Shown: positions 5,827 through 32,935 of the stretch, one piece after another
How positions within the stretch are numbered: the first letter of the stretch is position 1
How the letters are laid out: every line of letters begins with the position of its first letter
From: Megasphaera sp.
Lineage (GTDB): Bacteria > Bacillota > Negativicutes > Veillonellales > Megasphaeraceae
Reading direction: 5' to 3'
NCBI GenBank assembly: GCA_022486585.1
Contig: JAKVKI010000019.1
Coordinates: 1 to 34,613 of the forward strand
DNA: 34,613 nucleotides
Program-made: the position numbers and the translations under genes
The notes under the pieces: model-generated
The model's input: the letters and a program-made list of their open reading frames with translations, nothing else
What the model was told of the DNA's origin: nothing
Database searches by the model: none

Positions 5827-5921
5827 GTTTTTTCCCCCAATGTGTGTTGTAGTGCAGTACTCTCACGAATGATACGCTGTCAGCCACTGCTGCTGACAAG
5901 ACAGGTCCTGTCATGCACAGA

Positions 5922-7184
5922 TCAATTTAATTTTATCATAAAAGTGATGATGCCGTCTTTGAAATTGACAGAAATTTTTCCTTTTAACAGCTGCGTCAAT
6001 TCTTCTGCCATAGACAAGCCAATGCCATACCCTGATTTTTGGCTGTTATGGGATTCGTCACCACGATAAAAGCGTTCAAAGAAACGGCTGTAATCCACGT
6101 TCTTACCATCGGCATAGTTATTAGCAACAGTAACGATGATTCCCTTGTTCTTCTTGCCACTCTTTAACGTCACATCGATAGTGCCGCCATCATCGCAATA
6201 TTTGACAGCATTATCTACTAAAATATTGACCAGTTCATACAAACATTTGGCATCGGATACGATGTGCAGGTCTGGCTGAATATGACTGACTAAGGTCTTC
6301 TGTTCATCTGTTACCATCGGTTGAAACGACTCTGTAACCGTTTGGACCGTATCGGATACATCGACAGAAACCATATTCAGATCCGTTTGCGACCGTTCTC
6401 CCATTTTCGACAACGTAATGAGATCCGTAATGAGATTGTTGAGGCGCCGCACCTGTTTCAGTATACTCCCGGTCCACTGGCTCTTGCCGTTAATCATTTC
6501 GATGGTTTCTGCATTAGCTGAAATAATGGCGATCGGTGTCTTCAGTTCATGACCAGCATTGGTAATAAATCGCTTCTGATTTTCCATATTATGAATGAAT
6601 GGCTGAATAGCTACGTTACACAACGCTGCCAGGATGAGCACATATAAAATAATACAGATGAGGCCAAACCACGCTGAATCACGCATAAAATCCGTGATTG
6701 CCGAGACATCACGCGTACAGTCCATGATAACGATAAGATACGTATCATTATCGTTTTTGGTAATCATATAGCCATAAGTAGCTTTATTCTTTTTGAAAAA
6801 GCCTTGGATCTTTCCTTCTGCCACAGTCGTACGGGCATATTGGATAGCTTCTTGCTCCGTAAATGCCGCAATATTGGCAATATTAATTTTTTCTGCATAG
6901 CCATCTGCATTGACCAATACACTAAAATAGCGAATCTGATAAGAAAAATCAGGTGTATCGTCAGACCAGCTGCCGTTACCGAGCCAGCTCGTATTGGGTG
7001 GTGTCGAATGAGATGGTATGTGCCCGCCATTTTGGGAAATATACTGCAGGACATTCATACACTGCGACTCCATACGGACATAGCTGATAGCATTAATAAG
7101 GCCTAAGGCACCAACAACGATGAGGAACACCGCGGCTGTAGCAATGATAATGAATTTACGGCGCAACCGCTTGATGATATTCAT
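5922..7184 (-). CDS. Sensor histidine kinase
   Basis: This 420-residue membrane kinase has a first transmembrane helix at about 11-33, an extracytoplasmic sensor region of about 135 residues with no family I recognise, and a second helix at about 172-194. The dimerisation/phosphoacceptor helix carries ITNAGHELKTPI with the phosphorylated histidine at 212. The ATPase domain has the N box VDNAVKYC (Asn325), the F box FERFYRGD, and the glycine box GYGIGLSMAEEL. The usual DxGxG of the G1 box is replaced by ANNYADG, so nucleotide binding may be non-standard. It starts two bases after the response-regulator stop codon and is surely its partner. The signal is unknown. Confidence 0.93.
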   Translation of the reverse strand: MNIIKRLRRKFIIIATAAVFLIVVGALGLINAISYVRMESQCMNVLQYISQNGGHIPSHSTPPNTSWLGNGSWSDDTPDFSYQIRYFSVLVNADGYAEKINIANIAAFTEQEAIQYARTTVAEGKIQGFFKKNKATYGYMITKNDNDTYLIVIMDCTRDVSAITDFMRDSAWFGLICIILYVLILAALCNVAIQPFIHNMENQKRFITNAGHELKTPIAIISANAETIEMINGKSQWTGSILKQVRRLNNLITDLITLSKMGERSQTDLNMVSVDVSDTVQTVTESFQPMVTDEQKTLVSHIQPDLHIVSDAKCLYELVNILVDNAVKYCDDGGTIDVTLKSGKKNKGIIVTVANNYADGKNVDYSRFFERFYRGDESHNSQKSGYGIGLSMAEELTQLLKGKISVNFKDGIITFMIKLN

Positions 7185-10025: not shown

Positions 10026-11495
10026 CTAGCACTGTGACTGGAGAGCCTGTATAGCTTTATCTGTCGAAAGCCATGCTTCACCCATGTCATACCCTGCTTT
10101 TTCCAAATCCAGCTGGCAGGCGAAAACCTGCGGAATAGCTGTTTTATATACATCTTTATTATACATATAACGCAGTGTTGTTTCAACATCACCATCACTG
10201 AGTATATGACCATGGTCGATGAGAATAAGACGGTTGGCATACGGCAGCGCCGCTTCCAGCATGTGTTCAATAACGACAATCGTATGACCGTATTTCACGT
10301 TCAATTCATGGACTAATTCATAAAAAGAATGTGTCCCTTCCGGATCAAGGGCCGATGTCGGTTCATCGAAGACGAGGATATCCGGATTGGTAGCTAAGAC
10401 ACCGGCAATAACCAGACGCTGCCGCTGCCCGCCAGAGAGCTTGCTCAACAGTCGCGTCCGATACGGCGTCAGATCCACCTTTGCCAGTGATTCCGTAATA
10501 GCTGCTTCAATCTTATCGGGAGCAATGCCGAGATTTTCCAGGCTGAAGGCAATTTCTTCTTCAACGGTCATCGCCACGAGCTGACTATCATAGTCATCCA
10601 GCATAGCGCCAACGCGGCTGGCTAAATGAGAAATCGTCGTCTGCGTCGTTGCCTGACCAGCAACATAAACCATACCTTTCATGACACCGCCGAAGTAATG
10701 CGGGATAGCTCCAGTCATAGCCATGCATAGCGAGCTCTTGCCACTGCCGCTTTCACCGGTAATGACCAAAAAATCGCCTTTGTTGACAACAAGATTCACA
10801 TCATCCAGTACAGGGGTCTTTTGTTTATTATAGATGTAACTCATGTGTTCCATAGAAATGAGGCTGTCGTTAGACGGTTTCAATTCATACATAGAGTGGT
10901 CTGAGGTCACTTCTTGTTCTTCCAGCGAATCAAGGATCCCCCGCGACACGAAGAGACGCAGTGCCGGGAAATACATGAGTGGCGTTACGACAGCATTGAG
11001 GGCACCAATAACGACGACTAATGGCAGCATGCCGTAAACATACACAGGCCATGGCAAATCCATGACAAATTTCAAAATAGTGACGAAAGAGCCGCCGCTA
11101 AGACAAGTCGCAAAGAAACCAGTCAATACAGGCAAGCAGGAATGTCCTTTAATACGAATAGAGGAGAGATTTTTTACGATAAAGGTACACGTCAGCGTAC
11201 CTAAAGGTTCACTAACAATATTACCATAAGGAAACCCTGATTTCGATGTAAGGACGTTGATCAGCGCTGCTACAAGGCCGATGCCCAGCGCCTGCTTATA
11301 AGAAGGTTTCGTCAGGCAAATAGCTACACAGTATGTTGCAATGGTCCAGTTTGGCGTAATACCAGCTACGCTAGGCGACACAAGATGAAGGATGCAGCCA
11401 ATAGCCAGGAGCAGTGTCGTAATGGTGATCCAGCGGAACTGACCGCCTTGGCGATGATGAAATTCTAATTTTGAAATATCTGCAACTGTTTTCAT
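10026..11495 (-). CDS. ECF transporter fusion: TrpP-like membrane S component plus ATPase domain
   Basis: This 489-residue protein joins two ECF parts normally made separately. Residues 1-185 are hydrophobic with about six predicted helices. They resemble TrpP-type S components, with an N-terminal ILHLVSP, a SKSGFPYGNIVSEPLGT segment and a short GxxxALNAVV-type helix near 160. Residues 212-440 are a complete ABC ATPase with Walker A GESGSGKSS (247-255), Q-loop, signature LSGGQRQR (353-360), Walker B LVFDEPTSALD and the switch histidine in VVIEHM. The gene follows EcfT by 9 bp, giving an ATPase-T-(S+ATPase) operon under a tryptophan-type T-box. Tryptophan or a close precursor is therefore the likely substrate. 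The fusion is seen directly; the substrate is inferred. Confidence 0.85.
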   Translation of the reverse strand: MKTVADISKLEFHHRQGGQFRWITITTLLLAIGCILHLVSPSVAGITPNWTIATYCVAICLTKPSYKQALGIGLVAALINVLTSKSGFPYGNIVSEPLGTLTCTFIVKNLSSIRIKGHSCLPVLTGFFATCLSGGSFVTILKFVMDLPWPVYVYGMLPLVVVIGALNAVVTPLMYFPALRLFVSRGILDSLEEQEVTSDHSMYELKPSNDSLISMEHMSYIYNKQKTPVLDDVNLVVNKGDFLVITGESGSGKSSLCMAMTGAIPHYFGGVMKGMVYVAGQATTQTTISHLASRVGAMLDDYDSQLVAMTVEEEIAFSLENLGIAPDKIEAAITESLAKVDLTPYRTRLLSKLSGGQRQRLVIAGVLATNPDILVFDEPTSALDPEGTHSFYELVHELNVKYGHTIVVIEHMLEAALPYANRLILIDHGHILSDGDVETTLRYMYNKDVYKTAIPQVFACQLDLEKAGYDMGEAWLSTDKAIQALQSQC

Positions 11496-11504
11496 GATAG
11501 CCTC

Positions 11505-12191
11505 CTAGACGATACCGTTCAAACGCATATAGACAACAAGGATGCTGCAAGCCGCCAGTACGGCCATGACAACATAATCGATGCCTTTAGGACGAACGTT
11601 GCTCATGAAACTGTGTTCATTGCTGCCAAAGCCCCGCAGTTCCAGACTCAAAGCCATCGTTTCCGAACGGCCTAATGATTTGAGCATGAGCGGCTGAATA
11701 ACACTCATATAATTTTTAAGTTTCTTGAATACATTCCCCTTCGTCGAAAGGCCACGGCAAGCCTGTGCTTCCTGTACGGTCTGACTTTCTGCAAGGAAGT
11801 CCGGCACAAAACGCAGGGCCGCCGTAAACATAAAGGCATATTCATAGGGGATTTTTATTTGTTTGACTAGCGCTGCCGTCAAATCCTGCAAACGCGTCGT
11901 CGTCAATAAAATAATAAAGACCACCGTCATGGCCAGCATGCGCAGCCCTGTAACATATGCCGACTCGAGGGAACCGCCGCCTAAGAGCTGTACCAGCGCT
12001 AAGAATGCAGCGAAAATACACAGACTAAAAACGGCTTTGCTATTACGGCTCAAGCTGCCGCACAAGGCAAGCAATATCAGTTCAATCATAACGAGGACAA
12101 TGAGCGGCACTGTCGTATGCAGTACTAACGCCCAAAAAGAAAATGCAAAGGTGCCTAACAGTTTAGTGACTGGTACGAATTTTTTCATCAT
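11505..12191 (-). CDS. ECF transporter transmembrane component (EcfT)
   Basis: This 228-residue membrane protein couples the two ECF ATPases to the substrate-binding S component. It has several hydrophobic helices in the N-terminal 110 residues and the EcfT coupling helices carrying Ala-Arg-Gly-type motifs, here EAQACRGLST and SLELRGFGS. The open frame extends to 12251, but the start at 12191 overlaps the ATPase stop codon as ATGA, which indicates translational coupling and gives the normal N-terminus. It lies between the lone ATPase and the S-ATPase fusion, so all parts of one transporter are encoded together. Confidence 0.9.
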   Translation of the reverse strand: MMKKFVPVTKLLGTFAFSFWALVLHTTVPLIVLVMIELILLALCGSLSRNSKAVFSLCIFAAFLALVQLLGGGSLESAYVTGLRMLAMTVVFIILLTTTRLQDLTAALVKQIKIPYEYAFMFTAALRFVPDFLAESQTVQEAQACRGLSTKGNVFKKLKNYMSVIQPLMLKSLGRSETMALSLELRGFGSNEHSFMSNVRPKGIDYVVMAVLAACSILVVYMRLNGIV

Positions 12192-13003
12192 TTTGTCGTT
12201 CCCCCTAACCGTTTCAGCATCGCTGCCGTAAATTCTGTAATGGATTTGCAATAAGGCATACCTGGCACAGCCATAGATAAGGACACGGCTTCCGGACGGC
12301 TCAGCCCTAATTCATACAGGTCCTTCCGCTGCGTGAACAGCTCTTGCGGCGTCCCGTCAAACGCTTTGGTATGATTGCCGATGACCAGCACACGTTGGCA
12401 GAATTCTGCCAAAATATCCATATCATGTGTAATGAGCAGGATCGTCATGCCCTGCTTATTCAATTTCGTCAGAAGATCCATGAGCATGGCCTTATCAGCA
12501 CTATCCTGGCCACTCGTCGGTTCATCGAGGATGATGCATTCCGTATGCATAGCTACTGCCGAAGCAATGGCAACACGCTGCTTTTCGCCACGGTTCAGAT
12601 TAGGCGGATAGGCATCTGCCAAATCGGTCAGCGCTGTCGCCGCTAACGCATCCGCTACGGCATGACCGATTGCTGCGTCCGACATGCCGAGCTGCTGCGG
12701 CCCATAGGCCACTTCTTCTTGCACAGTAGGACGGAACATCTGCCGTTCAGGCCGCTGAAACACATACCCCATAAAATGACTGCGCACAGCAGCTTCGTGC
12801 TGCGTAATATCTTGTCCATCATGCAGAATCGTCCCGGTTAGCGGTTTTTCTAACCCCATGAGCAACCGCGTCACCGTCGTCTTGCCGCAGCCATTGCGGC
12901 CGCCAAGGCCGATGAATTCACCTGCATTGATCGTTACGCTGACATGCTCCAGTACAGGCACGCCATTGCCGTAATTGAATGTTACATCTTTCATTTCCAA
13001 CAT
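12188..13003 (-). CDS. ECF transporter ATPase (EcfA/CbiO type)
   Basis: This 271-residue ABC ATPase energises the ECF transporter as a heterodimer with the ATPase half of the fusion protein. It has Walker A GGRNGCGKTT (34-43), Q-loop FQRPERQMF, Walker B IILDEPTSGQD and the switch histidine in ITHDMD. The ABC signature is LNRGEKQR rather than LSGGQ. Variant signatures of this kind occur in ECF ATPases, and the fused partner carries a canonical one, so the pair may be asymmetric. The open frame runs back to 13282 through the T-box, which is untranslated leader. The ATG at 13003 after a GGAGG site is the real start. The gene is first behind the T-box terminator. Confidence 0.92.
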   Translation of the reverse strand: MLEMKDVTFNYGNGVPVLEHVSVTINAGEFIGLGGRNGCGKTTVTRLLMGLEKPLTGTILHDGQDITQHEAAVRSHFMGYVFQRPERQMFRPTVQEEVAYGPQQLGMSDAAIGHAVADALAATALTDLADAYPPNLNRGEKQRVAIASAVAMHTECIILDEPTSGQDSADKAMLMDLLTKLNKQGMTILLITHDMDILAEFCQRVLVIGNHTKAFDGTPQELFTQRKDLYELGLSRPEAVSLSMAVPGMPYCKSITEFTAAMLKRLGGTTK

Positions 13004-13027
13004 GTCCCTGTTCCTCCATTCATATAC

Positions 13028-13317
13028 AAAAAAACCTTCCATCTCTTGTAAAAACAAGGGACGAAAGGTTAGTATATACTTCTTCCGCGGTACCACCCGT
13101 ATTGACTTGGTCAGTCCTGCTCTGCATGTACGGCCGAAGCGATACACGTTCTTTGATAACGGTGGAAATACACCGTCGCACCCTACTTGATCTCCGTTCA
13201 GGCCGCATCTCCCGAATCCATTCCATTTGCTGAACTGTACCGAACTCTCACTATCATCGGCTCGCTGCCACTGTCGTTGCATATGTACTCGTTTCGTTCA
13301 TCGATTGATGTTAAATT
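13028..13317 (-). ncRNA. T-box riboswitch leader, specifier codon read as TGG (tryptophan)
   Basis: The minus strand carries the T-box core ACGGGTGGTACCGCGG at 13085-13100, followed by an intrinsic terminator (arms AACCTTTC and GGAAGGTT, then seven T, 13028-13070). Folding Stem I by hand gives an upper helix CATATGC/GCAAATG and a lower helix CGAA/TTCG. Between them is an internal loop with AGTA on the 5' side and GAATGGA on the 3' side. This is the known specifier-loop layout (AGUA opposite GAA-codon-A), so the codon at 13218-13220 is TGG. A Stem III-like hairpin ACGGTG/CACCGT follows. Uncharged tRNA-Trp should therefore switch on the ECF operon. The T-box identity is firm; the specifier rests on a hand fold. 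Confidence 0.92.
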
Positions 13318-13324
13318 AACTATA

Positions 13325-13352
13325 AGTATACAGTATTTCAGCTGCTTGTCAA
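13325..13352 (-). promoter_or_regulatory. Sigma-A-type promoter of the T-box/ECF operon
   Basis: Minus-strand TTGACA (13347-13352) and TATACT (13325-13330) are separated by 16 bp and would start transcription near 13317, just before the T-box Stem I. The -35 box lies 16 bp past the stop codon of the upstream C_GCAxxG_C_C gene, so the two units are separately driven. Confidence 0.8.
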
Positions 13353-13368
13353 GGAATCTATGGTCAAC

Positions 13369-13782
13369 TTATCTGATTCCCCGTTCTTTGACAAACCGCA
13401 CGAGCATTTCTACGGTAACTGCCATAATTTCCGAACAGGGTACGACACCGTGAGCCGGGCTTTTGAGAACACGGCAACAGGCTACGCCAAAATGTTTGAT
13501 CCAAATATTGTAAAATTCATGAACTGGCGCATTCATTTCCTGTTTCGTCTTTTCTTGGGGATTACTGCGACCTGTCAGGGCGCCTAAGACAAGACTGGCA
13601 CCGGTCAGAGCGCCACAAGCACAGCCAGAACCACCGATACCGCCGCCTAAAATAGATGCCATGCGGAATGTTTCTTCTGGCAGTTGAAGCTCCAGTACAT
13701 CATTGCTCGTTTTCAGTACTGTTTCGACACAATTATTACCTAATTTAAAATAATTCGCAGCAATTTCTTTTACGTCTTCCAT
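13369..13782 (-). CDS. C_GCAxxG_C_C family protein (cysteine-rich, probably redox-active)
   Basis: This 137-residue protein matches the family named for its spaced cysteines: Cys18 in NNCVETVL, the signature GGGIGGSGCACGALTGA around residues 46-62, CC in GVACCRVL, and Cys in VVPCSEIM. Members are thought to be redox-linked, but their biochemical role is not established. The central Gly/Ala-rich segment could enter the membrane, though no clear signal peptide is seen. It has a strong AGGAGG ribosome site and its own extended -10 promoter (TGCTATAAT at 13825-13833). It precedes the T-box operon but has a separate promoter. Confidence 0.88.
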   Translation of the reverse strand: MEDVKEIAANYFKLGNNCVETVLKTSNDVLELQLPEETFRMASILGGGIGGSGCACGALTGASLVLGALTGRSNPQEKTKQEMNAPVHEFYNIWIKHFGVACCRVLKSPAHGVVPCSEIMAVTVEMLVRFVKERGIR

Positions 13783-13965: not shown

Positions 13966-14061
13966 GCTTTTATCCAGAGAGGTGGAGGGACTGGCCCAAT
14001 GAAACCCGGCAACCGATAACGACGGTGCTAATTCCTGCGGAAGCAATTCCGAGAGATAAAG
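13966..14061 (+). ncRNA. SAM-I riboswitch (S-box) aptamer
   Basis: The order of conserved S-box blocks is complete: TATCCAGAGAGGTGGAGGGA, CTGGCCC, ATGAAACCCGGCAACC, GGTGCTAATTCCTGC, and the closing GAGAGATAAAG that pairs with CTTTTATC at the 5' end (P1). When SAM is bound, P1 forms and the downstream terminator folds, switching off metQ and metF. The identity is firm from these motifs. Confidence 0.96.
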
Positions 14062-14070
14062 AACGGGTAT

Positions 14071-21480: not shown

Positions 21481-22197
21481 TTACGAACAGGCCTGCAGTG
21501 CATCCCGGAAGCCTAATTCTTTGAAAACCTGCTGCATAGCCTGTGCCAATTCGGCAGCATTGGCCGAACAACCTGCCACGCCGTTAGACATAACAATGAC
21601 GGTAAACTCTTCCAAATCCATGAGCCGATGGCTCAGTACAAGTGCCTTTTCGATCTGTTGCGGACTCGTAGCCACATCGGTCGTGATAATGCACAGCCCC
21701 GACTGTCCTGGAATCCCGTCAGCAGCAATGCCGCTCATATGGCATGTACTGCAGAACTCGACACTACTGCCACTGACATCACCGTTATTATCAATGACCG
21801 TACTGACCTGACTGCCATGAGACGGCGAAACAGCCGCTGTCAGCGTCGCCAAACTGCTAATGAGCAGGGACGGCTTAAAATACTGATGTGTATCCCCATA
21901 TGCCCCAAGAGCTACATCATACGACGGCATGCCTAACTGTTTCGACACAGCCTGGCAGATTTCCTGCCGGATTTCTTTGCCCCGTTTTCCTTGTGGAAGA
22001 GCTGTTCCGTTATGGAGCACCAGCGTCTTGCCAATAGTACACGTTATCATACCTTCACGTGCTGTAACGATGGAGCAGTCTGTACGACTGACGATCATGG
22101 CTAAATCTAATTTTACACGGTTTTTGCAAAGACCGCTATAGGTTCCGGCTGCACTGAAGCCCTGGGGAACGCAAATATCATCATATTCCTGTTTCAT
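21481..22197 (-). CDS. Shortened, divergent ArgJ-like protein in the argJ position
   Basis: This 238-residue protein lies where argJ (ornithine acetyltransferase, about 400 residues) belongs. ArgJ-like stretches remain: VPQGFSAAGTYSGL, KLDLAMIVS, VSKQLGMPSYDV, IITTDVATSPQQIEKAL, and MSNGVAG. The catalytic features are missing. The autoprocessing ATM(L) sequence with nucleophile Thr is replaced by GQSGLC, the oxyanion STGVIG by GAYGDTH, NSGNAN by LHNGTA, and the whole C-terminal beta-chain half is absent. There is no room for it before argB. The frame is open and has a good ribosome site, AAAGGTGGAG, so it is a maintained gene rather than a fresh wreck. It probably cannot perform the ArgJ reaction and may be regulatory or structural. 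Confidence 0.75.
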   Translation of the reverse strand: MKQEYDDICVPQGFSAAGTYSGLCKNRVKLDLAMIVSRTDCSIVTAREGMITCTIGKTLVLHNGTALPQGKRGKEIRQEICQAVSKQLGMPSYDVALGAYGDTHQYFKPSLLISSLATLTAAVSPSHGSQVSTVIDNNGDVSGSSVEFCSTCHMSGIAADGIPGQSGLCIITTDVATSPQQIEKALVLSHRLMDLEEFTVIVMSNGVAGCSANAAELAQAMQQVFKELGFRDALQACS

Positions 22198-29945: not shown

Positions 29946-29959
29946 TGAATCCTCCTTGT

Positions 29960-29990
29960 AAAAAAAGACCTCCGCCTAAAGGCAAAGGTC
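29960..29990 (-). terminator. PyrR-controlled attenuator terminator before pyrB
   Basis: The minus-strand hairpin GACCTTTGCC-TTTA-GGCGGAGGTC is followed by seven T, 15 bases before the pyrB start. It is the terminator of the leader whose PyrR loops lie upstream. Confidence 0.92.
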
Positions 29991-30023
29991 ATATATTAAG
30001 CATGGCAAAATATGTCCCTTCTT

Positions 30024-30085
30024 AGCCTCTCTGGACTACATTAAAGGTACAACAAATGATACGGAATAGCACAGCCTCTCGGACT
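30024..30085 (-). promoter_or_regulatory. Pyrimidine operon leader with two PyrR-binding loops
   Basis: The minus-strand leader RNA contains AGTCCAGAGAGGCT (30024-30037) and, 35 bp earlier, AGTCCGAGAGGCT (30073-30085). Both match the PyrR-recognised anti-antiterminator loop (AGUCCNGAGAGGCU), the second with one base fewer. The upstream loop sits in a hairpin closed by GAATA/TATTC. UMP-bound PyrR would stabilise these loops and allow the terminator at 29960-29990 to form. Only one terminator is seen for the two loops. No pyrR gene lies in the window. Confidence 0.88.
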
Positions 30086-31993: not shown

Positions 31994-32935
31994 TTAGAAC
32001 TGGAAGAATCCCATTGATTCATCGGCCATAGGAATGACGGGAAATCCCGCCGGTACCGGCTGAAGGATCATAAATACCAAGGCTGTCAAAACGGCAAGTC
32101 CCATCGTGACATAAGAAAATGTTCCTTTCGTACTGTGTGCGCTAAGCCCAAAAAGGCGGACACCAATAGCGGAACCGATCGTAGCAAACAGCGCTCCCAG
32201 CGAAAAATAGTGATATATACAATAGCTCACGACAAGAGCAATGATCATACCGCCATTGATAATGATGGGGTAGCACCGTGATAATACAGACGGGCTCTTG
32301 CTACGCTGCATGGACTGCAGCCAATCCGTACCATCAATACCGGTCAGCCCTGTCGCAAAGAAAGAACCATACAAGAATTTATCCCATATATCTGCCCATT
32401 TATGACGATCGCCGCCAAACCACATCCATGCCGTGTACGCTAAAACAGCAACACCAGCTACGATATAATAATAGTTTGCCGGAATGAACTGAACGACAAC
32501 CACGCCAATAGAGATAATGACACCAGCAATGACAGACAACTGAATAAGCTGTTGCTTTGCCGGTTTCGTTTTCTTATCCATTTCTTTGTAAGACTTGGCA
32601 AAGATTTCCATTAAGAAGCAAAAGATAAAAAAGACGATGCCAAAAAAAGCATTGAGTGCCGCAAAGGCAATAGTAAGCAAAATAGGAATGGCCATGCGCA
32701 CTCCCGGGAAAAACACCATGCTTTTAATATTCATCACATGCAACTGTGTATACGTCGTAAAATACGTAAACACATTGAACATCAACATACCGACAATACA
32801 TTCTACTGGTGTCGCTCCCATGTATAAATACGAAAACAACACACACATACTGATATTGATACCCGTAAAGCGGGCATATACCGTAGCGAAAAAGCCGGCC
32901 ATAAAAAATGGCGTTATTGCCAATAACATTTCCAT
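31994..32935 (-). CDS. Multi-pass membrane protein, unrecognised; TSUP-like internal duplication suspected
   Basis: This 313-residue protein has eight or nine hydrophobic helices. I do not recognise it with confidence. Two halves look related: an N-terminal FFMAGFFATVYARFTGIN and, after a charged middle (KEMDKKTKPAKQQ), a C-terminal YGSFFATGLTGIDGTD. A Gly-rich repeat at the start of each half is the layout of TauE/SafE (TSUP) anion exporters, but the usual GIGGG is weak, so the match is only suggestive. It starts 19 bp after pyrE with an AGGAG site, so it is probably co-transcribed with pyrF-pyrE. A pyrimidine-related or unrelated transport role is possible; no function is claimed. Confidence 0.6.
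   Translation of the reverse strand: MEMLLAITPFFMAGFFATVYARFTGINISMCVLFSYLYMGATPVECIVGMLMFNVFTYFTTYTQLHVMNIKSMVFFPGVRMAIPILLTIAFAALNAFFGIVFFIFCFLMEIFAKSYKEMDKKTKPAKQQLIQLSVIAGVIISIGVVVVQFIPANYYYIVAGVAVLAYTAWMWFGGDRHKWADIWDKFLYGSFFATGLTGIDGTDWLQSMQRSKSPSVLSRCYPIIINGGMIIALVVSYCIYHYFSLGALFATIGSAIGVRLFGLSAHSTKGTFSYVTMGLAVLTALVFMILQPVPAGFPVIPMADESMGFFQF

Follow-up and report, generated by a model that had tools for sequence, protein, structure and literature searches.

Which substrate is imported by a transporter whose energizing proteins resemble those of importers of many kinds, and can its regulatory RNA name that substrate? The question is raised by a locus of Megasphaera sp. (Negativicutes, Bacillota) on contig JAKVKI010000019.1 of assembly GCA_022486585.1, the whole analysed stretch of which, 34,613 nucleotides long, is called the window below. 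Its minus strand carries, in order, a promoter, a T-box leader and a terminator, and then genes for an energy-coupling factor (ECF) ATPase, A1, for the membrane scaffold EcfT and for a single protein in which an S component is fused to the second ATPase, A2. The evidence set out here makes it highly probable that the operon encodes an ECF importer of the dedicated type (group I) that takes up L-tryptophan and is under T-box control.

The T-box leader is recognized by the covariance model RF00230 at 13054–13310 (minus strand), where a cmscan of positions 12950–13420 returned a match of 85.9 bits (E 2.4e-19) that covers all 219 model positions from Stem I to the antiterminator. Stem I, an antiterminator with the UGGN bulge, the T-box sequence and a terminator 3' of them are all present. 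The intrinsic terminator, a hairpin followed by a U tract at 13028–13070 (minus strand), folds at −20.6 kcal/mol (z −5.55 against shuffles) and is kept across 19 aligned leaders, with one pair changed on both sides in 5 of the 19; a simple terminator scan of the window did not list it. Just 5' of the T-box lies a sigma-70-like promoter, TTGACA-16-TATACT, at 13325–13352 (minus strand), which has 11 of the 12 consensus bases. Since the promoter and terminator scan of the window returned sites no more frequently than chance (for promoters, 4 sites against 5.4 in shuffles), its position is the main support for it. A covariance search placed a T-box 5' of the same operon in all 16 other genomes of the family, at 93 bits or more in 10 of them and at 77.1–89.3 bits in the other 6.

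The specifier was read from an alignment of orthologous leaders from the window, these 16 genomes and two distant relatives (L085 and L086), 19 in all. The hexamer GAATGG is invariant in 19/19 and the adjoining bases vary, which puts the specifier codon TGG of the window at 13218–13220 (minus strand), and both the T-box and the TGG specifier are found in 17/17 family genomes. The helices flanking the specifier loop covary (columns 33–38/90–95 and 24–25/103–104, with compensatory changes at, for example, columns 33/95, 37/91 and 24/104), so that both structure and sequence pin down where TGG lies. An upstream AAATGGA of the window is not conserved. The host tRNA-Trp has the anticodon CCA, matching TGG, and ends in G73-CCA. 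The antiterminator bulge of the window, UGGU at 13092–13095 (minus strand), is thus predicted to pair with the GCCA end of the uncharged tRNA-Trp with a G.U at the discriminator position. Ten of the 19 leaders, counting that of the window, have U as the last bulge base and nine have C, and either suits the discriminator G73; a U against G73 is recorded in 46% of tryptophan T-boxes in TBDB (PMC7778990; this and the papers below are cited from extracts).

The leader is not alone in its genome, which holds 21 full-length T-boxes plus two partial matches. One stands ahead of trpS (TIGR00233, 374 bits) and another ahead of a complete trpEGDCFBA operon, and both read TGG in the covariance alignment; hence tRNA charging, tryptophan synthesis and the ECF operon share one signal. 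A bulge C occurs only in the trpE T-box among the 20 of the 21 T-boxes, that of the window included, whose motif is readable. A second weak TrpP match in this genome (14.9 bits) was dropped, the translation of its frame, as judged by eye and not by a family search, looking like a phosphoglucomutase.

The fused gene occupies 10026–11495 (minus strand) as a single open frame encoding 489 residues, with matches to both PF17099 and PF00005. Its TrpP-like S domain (residues 1–190, at 10926–11495) has six predicted helices and matches PF17099, the TrpP family, over residues 22–175, scoring 41.3 bits when the domain is searched by itself and 38.2 bits in the whole protein (cut-off 27.2); no other Pfam family exceeds its cut-off with this domain. 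Among 28 aligned S domains, the window included, all 28 match PF17099 at E ≤ 0.01, and 2 also match the general S-component family PF12822. The A2 domain (residues 213–489, at 10029–10859) has a canonical Walker A motif and LSGGQ signature, is matched by ABC_tran over residues 230–381 and by the ECF ATPase model over residues 213–485, and reaches 1.2e-63 with TIGR04520, the ECF matches lying below the curated cut-off. A1 (12188–13003, minus strand; PF00005 at 6e-28, and TIGR04521 at 5e-62, again below the curated cut-off) has the degenerate signature LNRGE, for which its relatives have LSKGQ, LSRGQ or something similar. EcfT (11505–12194, minus strand) matches PF02361 at 5e-22 and the solved EcfT 4hzu, chain T, at E 2.4e-12. 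The only models matched by the two ATPases and EcfT are generic ECF models or cobalt-type ones, and every listed match falls below its NCBIfam cut-off. The pairing of a degenerate A1 with a canonical A2 recurs in fused and unfused operons alike: LSGGQ was found in no tabulated operon A1, three A1 proteins having no motif that could be found at all, and two ABC genes with LSGG (L073 and L124) were taken as lying outside the operons. The two ATP sites would therefore be unequal. Thus, three propositions of an earlier note, which had been made from the letters of the window, are borne out by the covariance match and the Pfam searches: that the leader is a T-box with a TGG specifier, no other codon having emerged from the analysis; that the last gene begins with a TrpP-like membrane domain, no other family having come up; and that A1, EcfT and the fused gene form a three-gene ECF system.

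A PDB sequence search with an S-domain profile returned nothing relevant, and the fold was for this reason examined through structure. The model of the S domain has six helices (pLDDT 82.6, pTM 0.79), and that of the whole chain has six helices followed by the ATPase (pLDDT 83.1, pTM 0.62), with a low-confidence stretch at about residues 181–200 between the two (block means 67 and 57). When the S-domain model was compared with the PDB, 9 of the 10 best matches by E-value were S components (RibU, ThiT and BioY), with probabilities of 0.91–1.00, query TM-scores of 0.44–0.54 and E-values of 0.03–0.40; rank 9 was a chain of complex I, and rank 11 was 5edl, which is titled an ECF S component, the ranges with these two included being 0.44–0.56 and 0.03–0.41. 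The small-xxx-A motif of helix 1, typical of S components (PMC5037267), is T27-xxx-A31 in the window and is present in 27 of the 28 aligned S domains, window included.

The arrangement is a stable property of the family and not an accident of one assembly. The fused gene is present and open in 17/17 family genomes, and A1, EcfT, the fused gene and the T-box occur together in the same 17/17. An assembly artefact was considered as the source of the fusion and rejected, the frame being open in all of these and also in Veillonella and Negativicoccus. Named relatives contributed 24 loci, mostly from Megasphaera and Veillonella, and also from Anaeroglobus, Colibacter and Negativicoccus; a search of plasmids gave 71 records, none covering 80% of the fusion. 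The order of the genes varies. In Negativicoccus and a related metagenome-assembled genome (MAG) the T-box lies directly before the fusion and the order is fusion-A1-T, and the 9 Veillonella loci likewise have the order fusion-A1-T; in the latter (L076–L084, at about 5900–6000) a short, conserved block just 5' of the gene reads as promoter-like. Megasphaera paucivorans and one MAG have a copy of the fusion at each end of the operon, flanking A1-T (L056 and L057; named copies L071 and L070), the 5' copy being about 64% and the 3' copy about 76% identical to the fusion of the window. The 5' copy may serve another cargo or be an older copy, and these two-copy operons suggest how the A1-T-fusion order could have arisen.

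Beyond the family, a survey of 398 genomes of the phylum found a TrpP match in 109. The strong matches are single-domain frames, and the surroundings of the stand-alone TrpP in the 30 best loci, out to about 1.5 kb, contain neither an ECF ATPase nor EcfT. The leaders of these 30 loci, taken best scores first and with a crude choice of start codon, were scanned as a comparison only; one of them (L096) has an upstream T-box motif together with a triplet-rich stretch (11 triplets in 110 bases, with 0 of 100 shuffles as high), and its trpP could be doubly controlled. The weaker matches have a different setting. PF17099 rows under 67 bits number 39, of which 4 come from the genus of the window and 35 from elsewhere. 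Of the 35, G172 and the second rows of G258 and G142, all short or weak matches, were not fetched, and G306 was fetched and gave no S match, which leaves 31 placed loci. All 31 of these divergent TrpP matches lie in a dedicated S-A2-A1-T operon, 30 of them with an unfused S frame of 109 to 253 residues and one fused. The group I gene set, with S, two A and T together, is therefore shared by the window, 16/16 relatives and 31/31 placed distant loci. The one fused distant protein, of 427 residues (G189; L117, 4953–6236), belongs to another family and to the same class as the window.

The leaders of these distant operons point to tryptophan by another code. Most carry runs of GAG or TAG triplets a few bases apart, and (G/T)AG triplets so spaced are the form of the TRAP binding sites of Bacillus subtilis. 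TRAP acts on trpP in that species (PMC13170310). The TRAP gene, mtrB, was found for 27 of the 31 loci, which come from 26 genomes, and was not found for the other four. Spaced (G/T)AG arrays are present in all 27 mtrB-positive loci, at no more than 10 of 500 dinucleotide shuffles in 25 and at 18 and 25 of 500 in the remaining two, so that TRAP-like control is weakly indicated in those two. A cruder triplet count places 19 of the 27 at no more than 10 of 500 and finds L121, L122 and L142 unremarkable (113, 286 and 402 of 500). The spaced-chain measure was devised after the first leaders had been inspected, and in a second batch of 12 mtrB-positive loci, fetched later and put to the same measure, 11 fell at or below 10 of 500. 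A terminator-like hairpin with a T tract occurs in 24 of the 27 array leaders (0 to 8 of 100 in plain shuffles). Because several of these loci are nearly identical, the 27, drawn from 26 genomes and 11 families with several near-copies (f15), do not represent 27 independent events. No array was found in the four mtrB-negative loci. Three of the four instead have a T-box whose specifier position holds TGG; one scores 99.5 bits, and the others fall short of the gathering score at 79.0 and 76.1 bits. For one of these three (G381) the absence of mtrB had been established before the leader was fetched and the T-box found. In the family of the window mtrB was found in 0/17 genomes, and there is no array 5' of A1 in the window (chain score 2.0). 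Thus, the sensor follows the genome, being TRAP-like where TRAP exists and otherwise mostly a T-box, and two unrelated sensors of tryptophan appear to control one type of operon.

The history of the fusion was traced in a tree of 74 S domains, which used 13 of the 24 named loci and excluded L153 for its partial S match. The S domains of dedicated operons form a clade separate from stand-alone TrpP (support 100/100), the comparison being with 30 sampled stand-alone proteins in a tree that lacks a named B. subtilis sequence. Within the dedicated clade the 15 fused proteins group as a single clade (support 100/98), with one sequence of the tree (L128) on a long branch. A single fused clade has one fusion event as its simplest reading, and the fusion thus appears to have arisen once.

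Taken together, the parts of the locus suggest a working cycle. When tryptophan runs short, uncharged tRNA-Trp would contact the leader twice, reading the TGG specifier of Stem I and pairing through its GCCA end with the UGGU bulge; the antiterminator would then replace the terminator, allowing A1, EcfT and the fused S-A2 protein to be made. The TrpP-like S domain would bind tryptophan outside the cell, and ATP hydrolysis by A1 and A2, relayed by EcfT, would topple the S domain so as to release tryptophan inside. As S and A2 are one chain, S would be unable to leave the module. In a wider reading, which we favour by a slight measure, dedicated tryptophan ECF importers make up a class of their own, not described before and spread over many families of the phylum, and the operon of the window represents its fused branch. 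Control by tryptophan would have been retained while the sensor was swapped between TRAP and T-box, on perhaps three occasions should the three T-box groups have separate origins, and in the Negativicutes the S component would have become tied to an ATPase, with transport proceeding at unequal ATP sites and without S leaving.

Several observations weigh against the picture of a T-box-controlled tryptophan importer. The T-box of the window scores below the Rfam gathering score of 93 and for this reason is missing from a default Rfam scan of the window, in which a SAM riboswitch and a PyrR site were the sole hits. The consensus structure drawn by RNAalifold has two isolated pairs that cross the specifier loop and touch the codon (columns 27/101 and 29/99), and it gives the strand of the antiterminator other partners; taken alone, it therefore fails to recover the T-box fold. 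Because all parts sit at their usual places in the covariance model, these features are read as artefacts. The Veillonella orthologues have no T-box at the gathering score (8 loci scanned) and no T-box motif near the gene (9 loci), and for G189 neither a T-box motif nor a triplet array was found, nor an mtrB match anywhere in its genome. Nor is mtrB special to the operon, being found also in 3 of 5 tested genomes with stand-alone TrpP. The Foldseek E-values are weak, with a best of 0.03 and none at or below 0.001. Finally, the dedicated clade is distinct and the TrpP tested by others is of the stand-alone kind, and the substrate may be indole or some other precursor or analogue of tryptophan.

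This last point can be put as an explanation in its own right: the same machine under the same T-box would import a precursor or relative of tryptophan (indole, anthranilate or indole-pyruvate), which the trp enzymes would convert inside. The leader reports the charging of tRNA-Trp and not the cargo, the whole trp pathway is in the genome, so that a precursor would be usable, and the separation of the clade from stand-alone TrpP also fits; yet the S domain belongs to the TrpP family, deletion of whose B. subtilis member raises resistance to 5-fluorotryptophan (PMC13170310), and elsewhere the matching regulator is TRAP, which senses free tryptophan, and the explanation is accordingly judged improbable. 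Much less credit still can be given to a general vitamin or metal importer that has acquired its T-box by chance and resembles TrpP only as S components resemble one another. The likeness of its EcfT and ATPases to general and cobalt-type modules and the PF12822 matches of the two S domains noted above would suit it, but PF17099 stands alone above its cut-off for the S domain of the window and two unrelated tryptophan sensors sit on this operon type in different families; it is already disfavoured. That the specifier has been misread and the T-box, read in a shifted frame, answers some other tRNA, such as that for Gly (GGA) or for Met (ATG), is the most far-fetched of the three: the specifier region of the window, ATGGAATGGA, does offer other frames, but GAATGG is constant where its flanks vary, the corresponding position of the trpS leader holds the same bases in the alignment, and the bulge base is C or U in every aligned leader, as G73 requires. 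The uptake of tryptophan or a precursor proposed in the earlier note is thus strengthened, as far as sequence can speak to it, by the T-boxes of trpS and the trp operon, by the match of bulge and G73 and by the TRAP-like leaders of the unfused relatives; resting on the protein family and on two unrelated sensors, tryptophan is very probably the cargo.

Among known systems, the YkoEDC and BioMNY importers of group I likewise have their S, A and T genes in one operon; BioMNY is not known to have an S-A fusion, and the predicted cargo in the window, unlike theirs, is an amino acid. The ykoEDC operon also stands under a matching RNA leader, whereas in YkoD an A is fused to an A (PMC5037267) and in the window S is fused to A. 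Fusions of A1 to A2 are known as well (PMC6828968). TrpP (YhaG) of B. subtilis, of the Pfam family PF17099 to which the S domain of the window also belongs, imports tryptophan and is counted among the S proteins; it was among those tested, and tryptophan is among the named ECF substrates (PMC11487621). It is, however, a lone S protein, expected to draw on an ECF module that serves several S components, whereas the S domain of the window has its own A1, A2 and T and is fused to A2. Its regulation by TRAP (PMC13170310) resembles the control predicted for the unfused relatives of the window, whose leaders in mtrB genomes carry (G/T)AG arrays as do the TRAP-controlled trp and trpP of B. subtilis; the family of the window, which lacks detectable mtrB, has a T-box instead. 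T-boxes on tryptophan uptake genes are likewise on record, in the form of tryptophan T-boxes on NSS permeases and ABC transporters (PMC2494555), the T-box on the tryptophan transporter TrpX of Streptococcus suis (PMC9382623) and that on CD1988 of Clostridioides difficile, a putative tryptophan transport gene whose specifier is not given in the extract (PMC11477304); in none of these extracts does the T-box precede ECF genes that come with their own ATPases. Among the matches listed from the open-licence literature, no paper was found on an ECF module devoted to tryptophan, on an S component joined in this way to an ATPase, or on the regulation of such a system by TRAP or a T-box, though one may have been predicted earlier. 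The suggestion in the earlier note that the combination might be undescribed hence has to be narrowed: TrpP as an ECF S component is in print (PMC11487621), and it is only the dedicated module, the fusion and their control that may be new.

The rest of the window offers a few observations of its own. A SAM riboswitch at 13967–14062 (plus strand; 81.3 bits) points away from the T-box operon and adjoins the ECF operon in 12 of 16 family loci; 3' of it lies a gene for an NlpA-type (MetQ-like) lipoprotein, and a further gene reads as metF from its translation. A PyrR-binding leader at 29958–30051 (minus strand; 57.9 bits) stands ahead of what, judged from translations, is an apparent cluster of pyrimidine genes, and a 313-residue apparent membrane protein at 31994–32935 (minus strand), beside a pyrE-looking gene, has no Pfam match at E 0.001. 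Between apparent argC and argB genes, an ArgJ-like protein of 238 residues (21481–22197, minus strand) matches ArgJ weakly, at 19.2 bits against a cut-off of 32, the family model having 377 positions.

For the tryptophan ECF operon itself, two unrelated regulatory codes back a substrate, whereas the family matches of the ATPases and EcfT go no further than generic or cobalt-type models. Whether the S component must dissociate from the module during ECF transport is an open question that bears on the cycle of ECF importers, and a natural S-ATPase chain makes it directly testable. One type of operon would, moreover, be governed in some lineages by a protein that senses free tryptophan and in others by an RNA that senses the charging of tRNA, so that the two modes of control may be compared on the same genes.

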